A stretch of DNA of 64,000 nucleotides. It comes from Halorussus halophilus (lineage in GTDB: Archaea; Halobacteriota; Halobacteria; Halobacteriales; Haladaptataceae). Both the position numbers and the translations under genes were made by a program. Shown here one piece after another: positions 268-52,451 of the stretch; position 1 is the first letter of the stretch; every line of letters starts with the position of its first letter. The stretch spans positions 620,001 through 684,000 of the forward strand of contig NZ_CP044523.1 in assembly GCF_008831545.1 (NCBI RefSeq), given 5' to 3'. The notes under the pieces are model-generated. The model was not told the origin of the DNA and ran no database searches. It saw only the letters and a program-made list of their open reading frames with translations.

Positions 268-570
268 GTAGCCCGCCAGTACGCATTCGAAGTATAAACG
301 CGTGCCGAGTCGTGTGAAGAAGTGTCGTAATTTCGCGGGTCCGAATTCGCGGACCAGAGTCCCGACAAATCCCTCGTCTGGTCGCTAAGAATAATCTACT
401 CCAACACGGCTATCGCCTCGAAAGCCCTCGCCCTTTCAGTCCCACCCTGTGCTTGTGTCACCGGTCGCTTCCGATGGTTGGTGTCACCGGCTGTTTCTGG
501 AATAAGTCACACCGAGCGCACGCGTGACAAGGCGTAATGTGTTTGCCCACGTACGAGAAACCGACTACCG
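268..570. other. Intergenic gap between divergent genes
   Basis: No convincing gene is seen in these 303 bases, which separate two divergently read membrane-protein genes. They hold a small perfect hairpin (GGTCCG / CGGACC around 340-355) and the short copy of repeat family C at 416-450 (listed separately). Promoters for both flanking genes should lie here, but I could not single out a clear TATA box. Confidence 0.5.
416..450 (-). repeat. Repeat family C, short 'empty' copy
   Basis: Read on the minus strand this segment begins ACAGGGTGGGACTGAAAGGG and continues directly into CGAGGGCTTTCGAGG. The same two blocks bound the long structured element at 51214-51345, where roughly 80 bases of nested hairpin separate them. 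Here the two ends are joined with no insert. The GAAAG and CTTTC halves can pair. Confidence 0.6.
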
Positions 571-6419: not shown

Positions 6420-6662
6420 GTCGGTCGTTCGAGTCGGTCGTCTCGGGGGTGGAGGCGAGCAGAAAGGGTCTTTTCACTGGGGTGGGTAGCGAGGGGTGTG
6501 GCCGATGACGAGGCACCCAACCCGAACCGGACTCGGCACCCGGTGATGACGAACCCTATGAGTGCCGAGGCCGCCCTATTACCGACTCTTCGTTTCCCTC
6601 ATTCTCTGGGGAAGGATAGGTTGTAGACAGCAAACGCATACAACATCGTTGAGCTAGGACTA

Positions 6663-10622: not shown

Positions 10623-12146
10623 ATGTCAGACTCCGGGCAGACAGTCCACTCGCCGAAGACGGTACTTCCCTCTCCGGCCGACGCGGACAACGTCGAGTAC
10701 AATCCATCGTTAGAGACGCTGCGAGAGTACTCTGCGGAGTTCGAGACCACGGCAGAGTTCGGGTCGCCGTCCTACGTCAGCGACGAGCGCTCGCGCAACG
10801 CCGACAAGACCAAGAACGCCATCGACGACGAGTTCGGGCCGAGCGACTACGCGCACGTCGAGGAAGCGCTCGACCGCGCGCGCCAGAACGAGATGGTCTG
10901 TGTGGACCGACAGATGGGTCGCCACCCCGACCACTCCTATCGCTGTCGGCTCTACGTCTCGAAACGTTACTCCCGCATCGCCCTCACGTGGGCGAAACTC
11001 TTCGAACCGGCCGAGGACGACCCCGAGGCGGAACCGGACTTCCTCACGGTGCAGGTCCCCGAGAACGAGGAGATTGCAGTCCGTATTCTCCCCGACGAGG
11101 GCGTCACGACCGTCCTCGGCACCGACTACACGGGCGAAGCCAAGAAGTCGTTCCTCCGACTGTTCATGCTCCGAGCGAAAGAACAGGGCGGCCTCGGACT
11201 CCACGCCGGGAGCAAGCGCGTCACGCTCCAGACCGAGGGTGACGAAGCAGGCGACACCGAGGACGTCGGCCAACTCTTCCTCGGTCTCTCCGCGACCGGT
11301 AAGTCCACCTTGACCGCCCACGGTCTCTGGCTGGACGACGACGAGGACGCGACGATGCTACAGGACGACGTGTGTGCCCTGCTCCCCGACGGCACCGTCG
11401 CCGGGAGCGAAGGCGAAGGGCTCTACGTCAAAACTATCGGCCTCGACGCCGACGAACAGCCAGCGATGCACGCGGCTGTGACCGACGACTCGGCGGTCCT
11501 CGAAAACGTAGACGTGGCCGAGGACGGCACGGTCGATTTCGACAGCGACTACCACACCTCGAACGGCCGGGCGGTCATCCAGCGCGACAAACTCGCCTCT
11601 GCTGGCGAGGACATCGACCTGCCCGAAGTGGACCAGGTGTTCTTCATCACGCGCAACCCGACGATGCCGCCGGTTGCGAAGCTCTCGCCGGAAGAGGCCG
11701 CCGTGTCGTTCATGCTCGGCGAGTCCATCCAGACCAGCGCGGGCGACCCGTCGAAGGCTGGCGAGTCCATCCGCGTCGTCGGTACGAACCCCTTCATCAT
11801 GGGGTCGAAAGGCGAAGAGGGCAACCGCTTCCGTGACCTCATCGAAGACCTCGGCGTCGAGTGCTACGTCCTCAACACGGGCCACATCGGCGGAAAGGAC
11901 ATCGGCGTGACAGAGTCGGTGACCATCTTGCGAGAACTCGCCCGCGGTACCGTCGAGTGGACCCGCGACGACGCGACCGGCCTCACCGTGCCCAGCGACG
12001 TGCCGGGCATGGACATCGACGAGTTCGCGGTCGCGGACAACGTAGACGACTACGAACGCGCACTCGCGGACCTCCGGACCGAGCGAGAAGTTCACCTCGA
12101 TACGTTCGAGGAACTCTCCGAGGACATCCGCGACGCGGTGTACTGA
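10623..12146 (+). CDS. pckA: Phosphoenolpyruvate carboxykinase (ATP)
   Basis: The enzyme interconverts oxaloacetate + ATP with phosphoenolpyruvate + CO2 + ADP, the first committed step of gluconeogenesis. The 507-residue protein has the PEPCK P-loop GLSATGKSTLT (about residues 221-231), the metal/kinase-2 motif LQDDVCALL and the downstream GEGLYVKTIGL block. The size and P-loop are those of the ATP-dependent class rather than the GTP class (about 600 residues). The N-terminal 50 residues are poorly conserved and acidic. A TATA-like element (CATAATTAT) lies about 35 bases upstream of the ATG. The gene is single, with no obvious operon partner. Confidence 0.93.
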   Translation: MSDSGQTVHSPKTVLPSPADADNVEYNPSLETLREYSAEFETTAEFGSPSYVSDERSRNADKTKNAIDDEFGPSDYAHVEEALDRARQNEMVCVDRQMGRHPDHSYRCRLYVSKRYSRIALTWAKLFEPAEDDPEAEPDFLTVQVPENEEIAVRILPDEGVTTVLGTDYTGEAKKSFLRLFMLRAKEQGGLGLHAGSKRVTLQTEGDEAGDTEDVGQLFLGLSATGKSTLTAHGLWLDDDEDATMLQDDVCALLPDGTVAGSEGEGLYVKTIGLDADEQPAMHAAVTDDSAVLENVDVAEDGTVDFDSDYHTSNGRAVIQRDKLASAGEDIDLPEVDQVFFITRNPTMPPVAKLSPEEAAVSFMLGESIQTSAGDPSKAGESIRVVGTNPFIMGSKGEEGNRFRDLIEDLGVECYVLNTGHIGGKDIGVTESVTILRELARGTVEWTRDDATGLTVPSDVPGMDIDEFAVADNVDDYERALADLRTEREVHLDTFEELSEDIRDAVY

Positions 12147-49582: not shown

Positions 49583-51100
<1,518 letters not shown>

Positions 51101-51213
51101 GGATGGGATGTGGAGCGGGCGTGATAACTACTCTTTGGCTTGTAGGTCAGGGGAGCCAGGAAACAGCGTAGCGGTGACGGAGCATACAACAGGAGACGCC
51201 AGGCTGAACAAAC

Positions 51214-51345
51214 ACAGGGTGGACTGAAAGGGGTCGTCCGCTCGCGTTTATGTAGTCGTCTCAGTGACCCCTATCCGAGTCGGGCCGTGCGGAGAGACTC
51301 GGATATGTCACTGAGCGACCCGCGAGCGGACGAGGGCTTTCGAAG
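51214..51345 (+). repeat. Repeat family C: long nested-hairpin element
   Basis: Between ACAGGGTGGACTGAAAGGGG and GAGGGCTTTCGAAG lie three nested perfect stems: CGTCCGCTCGCG (51235-51246) with CGCGAGCGGACG (51321-51332), TCAGTGAC (51261-51268) with GTCACTGA (51307-51314), and TATCCGAGTC (51272-51281) with GACTCGGATA (51296-51305). The outer GAAAG (51225-51229) can also pair with CTTTC. The ends match the short element at 416-450. Confidence 0.85.
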
Positions 51346-51496
51346 AAGAAGTATCCGTTGTTTCGATTGCATCGGAGCAACGACGAATGCAGTGAAGTTT
51401 GCTGTTTCCAATACGTTCCGTAGTCGCACGAGTCACATCTGAGCCTCCCTGAACGCAGTGACGCTAGTTACTCCCGAAACCGATGAGAAACCGCCC

Positions 51497-51604
51497 CGCA
51501 CAGCACCGCACCAGCCACACCCTCCCCAACCGACTCGTTCGCTGACGCTCACTCGTCCCTCGCGCGGCATTTGGCGTGACACGAAGTCACGCCGACGCGC
51601 GCCG
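51497..51604 (+). repeat. Repeat family A, copy 2
   Basis: The blocks are CGCACAGCACCGCACCAGCC, ACACCCTCCCCAACCGACT, a short variable part, CCCTCGCGCGG (51557-51567), a hairpin GGCGTGAC / GTCACGCC (51573-51580 and 51586-51593) with loop ACGAA, and CGCGCGCCG. The order and spacing follow copy 1 at 32481, whose second hairpin has unrelated arms but a loop ACGAG. It ends 31 bases from the nadC stop. Confidence 0.75.
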
Positions 51605-51635: not shown

Positions 51636-52451
51636 TCACTCGCCAGTTCTGAACGACAGGTCCAGACTCGGAGCCGAGTGCGTCAGCGATCCCATCGAAA
51701 TCACGTCCACGCCAGTTGCGGCGTAGTCCGGCACGTCACCGACCGTAATCCCGCCACTGGCTTCTGCCAGTACGTCGTCGGGGAGCGACTCGACGCCAGA
51801 TTGCACTTCCTCCGGCGAGAGGTTGTCGAACAGCACGATGTCCGCTCCGGCGTCTGCCGCCCGAGCGCCGTCCTCTGGCGCCTCGACTTCGACCTCCAGT
51901 TTCGTGGCGAAGGACTTGCGCTCGCGGAAGTGTTCGATGGCGCCCTCCAGTCCCATCTCGGCGACGTGGTTGTCCTTGACCATGACCATGCCGGAGAGAT
52001 TGAGTCGGTGGGTGTCCCCGCCACCAGCGGCAACTGCACGCTTCTCGACGCCGCGCAGGCCGGGTGTCGTCTTTCGGGTGCCCGCGACCGCGACCGAGTC
52101 GTCTACCTCGTGGGCCGCCGCGACCGCTCTCCGGGTTTCTGTCGCTACGCCAGAGGCGTGCGCCGCGACGTTGACTGCGACGCGCTCGCCCCTGAGAACC
52201 GACTCCGCAGGGCCGTTCACTTCCAGAATGGTCTCGCCAGTGGAGACCCGGTCTCCTCCCTCTACGGGGGTATCGCCGGTCGAAACGTCCAGATAGTCGA
52301 AGACAGCTTTCGCGGCGTCGAGTCCCGCGACGACGCCCGACTCCTTGGCGACGAGTCGCCCCGTCGTCCACCCCGGAACGTGGTTAGTCACGTCGCGATG
52401 GCCCACGTCCTCGGCCAGCCACTGCTCGACTTGGCCATTAGTCACTGGCAT
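51636..52451 (-). CDS. nadC: Nicotinate-nucleotide pyrophosphorylase (quinolinate phosphoribosyltransferase)
   Basis: The enzyme converts quinolinate + PRPP to nicotinate mononucleotide. The 271-residue protein has AEDVGHRDVTNHV at the start, AGTRKTTPGLRGVEKRAV (the conserved R-K-T-x-P-G-x-R), MVMVKDNHVAEMG (KDNH) and ADIVLFDNLSPEEV, EASGGITV and VDVISMGSLTHSAP (barrel phosphate loops). The start overlaps the end of nadB by 14 bases, so it is the last gene of a nadABC operon. Confidence 0.96.
   Translation of the reverse strand: MPVTNGQVEQWLAEDVGHRDVTNHVPGWTTGRLVAKESGVVAGLDAAKAVFDYLDVSTGDTPVEGGDRVSTGETILEVNGPAESVLRGERVAVNVAAHASGVATETRRAVAAAHEVDDSVAVAGTRKTTPGLRGVEKRAVAAGGGDTHRLNLSGMVMVKDNHVAEMGLEGAIEHFRERKSFATKLEVEVEAPEDGARAADAGADIVLFDNLSPEEVQSGVESLPDDVLAEASGGITVGDVPDYAATGVDVISMGSLTHSAPSLDLSFRTGE

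Follow-up and report, generated by a model that had tools for sequence, protein, structure and literature searches.

A dispersed haloarchaeal hairpin element and its probable counterpart beside an RPA-like gene on plasmids

The hairpin at positions 51214-51345 of the window (the whole stretch of 64,000 nucleotides of Halorussus halophilus DNA analyzed here) belongs, in the interpretation to which we lend somewhat better than even confidence, to a family of dispersed hairpin elements of REP/MITE-like character, and a structured noncoding locus linked to an RPA-like gene has the same core. The plasmid locus would yield a structured RNA or present a folded single DNA strand, the former being the more likely, and the folded strand may cooperate with the single-strand-binding protein encoded next to it, serving to maintain the plasmid or to regulate its maintenance. 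The chromosomal copies, including that of the window, would be non-autonomous satellites of the plasmid module, probably spread by transposases acting in trans, of the IS6 type where inverted ends exist. The fixed, conserved place of the hairpin beside the RPA-like gene provides a first testable clue to the role of the element and connects three things that appeared unlinked in the literature searched: haloarchaeal intergenic hairpins, an IS6 MITE vehicle, and a conserved noncoding region of plasmids.

In the window copy, the stems lie between ACAGGGTGGACTGAAAGGGG on the left and GAGGGCTTTCGAAG on the right (Table 1). The first-pass annotation had described three perfect nested stems of 12, 8, and 10 bp; the stems are real, with lengths that had been given slightly too short (13, 9+4, and 10 bp). 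Across copies, both sides have changed in 8 of the 13 pairs of stem 1, and stem 3 surrounds a conserved apical motif, GGCGGTGCGGAGAG, which in the window reads GGCCGTGCGGAGAG. Relative to dinucleotide shuffles, folding of the window copy gave z values of -5.2 as RNA and -6.1 as DNA. The flanking genes, gpmI (49583-51100, minus strand) and nadC (51636-52451, minus strand), were named from their translations. Past the hairpin, at 51451-51604, a second dispersed repeat, GCTAGTTACTCCCGAAACCGATGAG...CACACCCTCCCCAACCGACTCG, has many genome matches on its own, and its reverse complement stands before the hairpin in some other genera. Elsewhere in the window, the C/D box sRNA sR-tMet (RF02163) at 6500-6572 is the sole Rfam match at the gathering threshold.

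Table 1. Positions of the element and its parts in the window
Feature	Position	Strand	Description
Filled type I hairpin copy	51214..51345	+	Nested stems between the left and right end blocks; covariance model R1, 134.7 bits at 51220-51343
Left flank of the filled copy	51190..51213	+	Putative degenerate remnant of the 26-bp iteron region
Closing stem GAAAG/CTTTC	51226..51341 (51226-51230 / 51337-51341)	+	Family sequence nearly invariant
Internal loop adjoining the closing stem		+	GGG / GGG in the family; GGG/AGG in the window copy
Stem 1, TCGTCCGCTCGCG	51234..51333 (51234-51246 / 51321-51333)	+	13 bp, perfect, covarying
Stem 2	51255..51319	+	4+9 bp, covarying: GTCG 51255-51258 / CGAC 51316-51319, CTCAGTGAC 51260-51268 / 51307-51315
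Stem 3, TATCCGAGTC	51272..51305 (51272-51281 / 51296-51305)	+	10 bp, covarying
Empty copy of the hairpin element	417..450	-	Frame without stems; weak R1 match at 418-443
Two 26-bp iteron units, CCGGTGACACCAACCATCGGAAGCGA / CCGGTGACACAAGCACAG	451..502	-	Upstream of the empty copy; family spacing

With up to two mismatches allowed, the end-block sequence GGTGGGACTGAAAGGG occurred at 64 places in the 4.45-Mb genome versus 2 for the reversed control; two of the 64 fall inside genes and look like chance matches. The covariance model R1, built on type I copies, recognized 57 distinct places at a cut-off of E<=0.001, while a weak match at 12009-12081 of the window was rejected, as it apparently lies inside coding sequence. 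Enrichment of the end blocks above chance and, as detailed below, conserved pairing between them thus bear out the family that the first-pass annotation had proposed. Its impression that similar sequences exist in other haloarchaea could likewise be substantiated: 83 of 292 Halobacteria genomes, belonging to 39 of 77 genera, carry the exact 20-mer of the element (control, 0), with Halorussus, Haladaptatus, Haloarcula, Halonotius, Halopiger, and Natronorubrum among the named carriers. No Rfam family matches the element at gathering or relaxed thresholds, no match was found in the viral contigs searched, and the literature search returned no description matching it, the string GACTGAAAGGG leading to unrelated papers only. 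A chance palindrome or an ordinary intrinsic terminator might be suspected in haloarchaeal intergenic DNA, which is rich in GC and palindromes, but this explanation is refuted by genome-wide enrichment, covariation, and conservation of the frame across 39 genera, leaving it with practically no probability.

The near-invariant frame, GGTGGGACTGAAAGGGG ... GGGGGCTTTC, holds a type I or type II hairpin, a shortened one, or none. Type I, to which the window copy belongs, is found mainly in Halorussus and also in Haladaptatus and Haloarcula, and type II in most genera; the named Halorussus loci share the hairpin class and the iterons (see below) of the window genome. Both types contain conserved unpaired blocks, and the hairpin classes are more than interchangeable inserts because each has its own conserved internal-loop sequence. 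The stems alter their sequence yet retain pairing across copies: changes on both sides were seen in 25 of 41 pairs of type I and 24 of 33 pairs of type II, none of 500 shuffles attained the real covariation, and the signal collapsed when partners were slid against each other. For mismatch counting, pairs had been picked by Watson-Crick frequency alone, blind to G.U; an earlier count, distorted by a mismatch that is fixed within type II hairpins, had been separated by position. Within the hairpin, 69 G.U versus 19 A.C mismatch cells were counted, numbers that overstate independence because copies within one genome are related; by column, the ratios were 25 to 8 (type I) and 13 to 6 (type II). 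Since G.U and A.C should arise equally in double-stranded DNA, the G.U excess indicates that the GACTGAAAGGGG strand is selected to fold single-stranded, which is compatible with RNA or single-stranded DNA; of the two, we lean slightly towards RNA. The suggestion of a structured RNA with a dispensable stem, raised by the first-pass annotation, may hold in part: covarying stems and strand-specific wobble tolerance agree with it, but folding of single-stranded DNA fits as well.

Strand-specific G.U tolerance, the heavy compensatory change, and the conservation of internal-loop sequence in both hairpin classes would also suit an interpretation in which every copy is a functional structured RNA (sRNA gene or UTR element) engaged in local regulation, its dispersal being incidental. 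We consider this unlikely. The copies sit between genes and vary from species to species, and their gene contexts correspond to chance expectation by intergenic length; beyond a weak codirectional excess of 19 to 8, a gene-context preference found no support. At the gpmI locus, the element comes, goes, and flips: among 17 congeners, it is absent in most, lies in opposite orientation in two, and may have left just a right-end remnant in another two. The lack of an Rfam match argues in the same direction, as does inspection by eye, which revealed no conserved promoter upstream of the dispersed copies; the latter observation counts against our preferred interpretation as well.

Upstream of the hairpin, 43 of 61 copies in this genome have direct iterons at 26-bp spacing, with 72 iteron matches there versus 5.4 in shuffles and 5 downstream; the copy L005 has 4.9 units. 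These left-flank iterons look like a DNA-level feature and to this extent also weigh against the interpretation that we prefer. Adjoining the hairpin as they do, they would be at home in a REP/BIME-like element or a substrate of single-stranded DNA transposition, with the hairpin recognized by a Y1/HUH-type or other protein, a model that could likewise accommodate the head-to-head pairs of other genera, the strand-specific folding, and the two PF01797 (Y1) proteins of this genome. Both Y1 transposases are, however, encoded on contig C3, where the genome-wide searches listed no element place and none is recorded beside them, and the terminal inverted repeats (TIRs) and 8-bp duplications that other genera show suggest a DDE transposase instead, so that we judge this model improbable, too. 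As a description, the comparison with bacterial REP/BIME sequences is apt, given 57 intergenic palindromic copies, some of them in inverted pairs: REP and BIME are also dispersed intergenic hairpins with head-to-head pairs and many copies, and are likely non-autonomous. The haloarchaeal stems, in contrast, are far longer and covarying, have an RPA-like partner on plasmids, and no RAYT was found beside the copies listed. BIME-like, head-to-head element pairs with about 25-36 bases between their left ends were observed at L112, L116, L130, L134, and L139 and in the own genome at C1:2258603/2258654.

The first-pass annotation had also noted that the bare ends recur, joined without insert, at 416-450 on the minus strand. 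A stemless unit does exist there, though the left ends of the two window copies are not identical (ACAGGGTGGACTG versus ACAGGGTGGGACTG), and many species have both empty and filled forms. Counted from the final G of GAAAG up to CTTTC, tail lengths in the family are graded, mostly about 95-115 in full copies, followed by 57-59, 46-51, 42, 27-30, and 14-16, and ‘empty’ copies are one end of this series. In the short form L038, as we interpret its sequence, the stretch between two CCGC repeats of the complete hairpin may have been lost; such a junction, coinciding with a short direct repeat present in the full form, points to internal deletion, and palindrome loss by slippage would fit better here than insertion. 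Empty copies may thus for the most part be internal deletions of the palindrome. The idea of a hairpin cassette entering between fixed ends, raised as one possibility by the first-pass annotation, is not supported, given the graded series and the L038 junction. Its model would be the SMR-A elements of Haloquadratum walsbyi, for which PMC3119063 describes insertion into palindromes without target duplication, and it can draw on this precedent, on the exact palindromic center CCGG of some empty forms, and on the fact that the same frame may enclose either of two unrelated hairpin classes or be empty. Yet deletion accounts for the graded partial forms, of which at least one has its junction at a direct repeat, empty and filled frames both occur inside TIR elements, and no close empty/filled orthologue pair was found. 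We therefore regard insertion of hairpins into near-terminal palindromes, as in SMR-A, as quite improbable. As far as their description in PMC3119063 allows a comparison, SMR-A and PATE elements resemble the present family in being haloarchaeal, about 110 bp long, and present in tens of copies, with prominent inverted repeats and an association with palindromes; PATEs are assigned there to IS605-type transposons, and SMR-A (HqIRS42, 43, 55) are set apart through the lack of target duplication.

How the whole unit might move is seen outside Halorussus. MITEs of the ISH15/ISH29 (IS6) type enclose the core in Halonotius and in two uncultured genomes, with 15-bp inverted ends (GGNNGTGTTCAGATA / TATCTGAACACTACC) and 8-bp target duplications, perfect examples being GTCCGGCC, AGTCGACC, and GTGACGCC. 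A single 2.0-Mb genome contains 76 instances of the TIR 11-mer GTGTTCAGATA (control, 0), and target duplications matching in at least 7 of 8 bases were detected in 12 of 52 TIR elements versus 1 of 312 shifted controls. Hairpin-bearing and empty or near-empty forms are both found within such ends. They also flank a 689-bp element that carries a decayed transposase, one 97-residue piece of which matches annotated IS6-family proteins of ISH15/ISH29 at 76-88%, its pieces not being recognized by Pfam. Mobility, as suggested by the first-pass annotation, is accordingly upheld for the unit as a whole, through target duplications and inverted ends elsewhere and the polymorphism at gpmI, but not for a hairpin cassette. 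Among 140 copies of other genomes, 30 had both IS6-type ends, which were present in none of 55 own and none of 22 congener copies in Halorussus, which counts against our preferred interpretation. The family shares 15-bp TIRs and 8-bp target duplications with IS6 MITEs in Halonotius and the two uncultured genomes, and differs from them in its Halorussus copies lacking such ends and in its core, a long covarying hairpin that is common to a plasmid locus without TIRs.

On plasmids, the same hairpin is kept at a fixed place. The type II consensus matches 101 haloarchaeal plasmids, most of them with one or two hits, and the hairpin lies about 440-650 bp upstream of an RPA-like OB-fold gene, in divergent orientation, where it stands at the distal end of a noncoding region. 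In the regions inspected, the neighbour is annotated as a DNA-binding protein or as replication factor A or SOSS-B like, and adjacency is direct in most of them, with another gene in between in PHS2. Among the best 60 records of each list (hairpin and RPA-like), 19 plasmids were common to both, and 15 of these had a divergent pair less than 1 kb apart, with 0.05 expected. Of 43 loci anchored on the RPA gene, 27 contained the hairpin according to a second model, R2, and type I hairpins, too, occur at the RPA-linked locus, namely on pNG500 and in one congener. The protein itself shows a weak C-terminal OB-fold match and an NCBIfam match to a replication factor A subfamily under its cut-off; Pfam and PHROGs otherwise say little. 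By genome, the association is less clear, as the RPA family is present in 60 of 83 element-positive and 116 of 209 element-negative genomes; the link is thus firm by element but loose by genome, the latter counting against our preferred interpretation.

The noncoding region between the two is conserved above the gene. Two noncoding blocks are 91-93% identical where the DNA of the RPA gene is at 70%, although the figure for a 40-base block is raised by the shared 20-mer anchor, and the 28-mer GGAATGGTCGGTCGCGAGCGACGCGGAG, with 3 mismatches allowed, was found, often exactly, in 129 of 292 genomes (control, 0). The region, which extends about 450-550 bp upstream of the plasmid RPA-like gene (L249, L250, L295, L296, and about 129 of 292 Halobacteria genomes), may in its own right be a new large element, of RNA or of DNA. 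A function at the plasmid locus is suggested by its fixed position and strong constraint. Going further, the hairpin could be the terminal domain of a large (~550 nt) ncRNA of archaeal plasmids that represents a new class and acts with the RPA-like protein, with the dispersed chromosomal hairpins as its mobile satellites, a tentative proposal that we think has some, if limited, probability. GOLLD and ROOL are large structured ncRNAs of bacterial mobile elements, and the haloarchaeal region resembles them as a long, plasmid-borne noncoding region conserved above neighbouring genes; it differs in being a candidate RNA, and no sequence relation between them is known. Folding of the RPA-linked region gave similar energies on both strands, which again counts against our preferred interpretation, and fold-based G.U/A.C counts over the whole region were discarded, as G.U was favored on both strands, a bias of the method. 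At the better RPA-like locus of the own genome (L287, C1:419636), the noncoding blocks are kept in diverged form with a palindrome added, and a terminal hairpin was not detectable, a further point on the negative side.

Two laboratory organisms, Halobacterium salinarum NRC-1 and Haloarcula marismortui (pHMA155, 101645-102233), have the region on their plasmids, making its nature as an RNA, origin, or regulator directly testable. On pNRC100 (L295, 146371-147098), several perfect short palindromes stand in the noncoding region where other plasmids have none, indicating that hairpins have been gained or lost inside this region as well. In L249, L250, L295, and L296, the plasmid block with the RPA-like gene recurs, accompanied by a gene of 96 aa and one of the DUF7558 type, often with a TFB gene on its other side.
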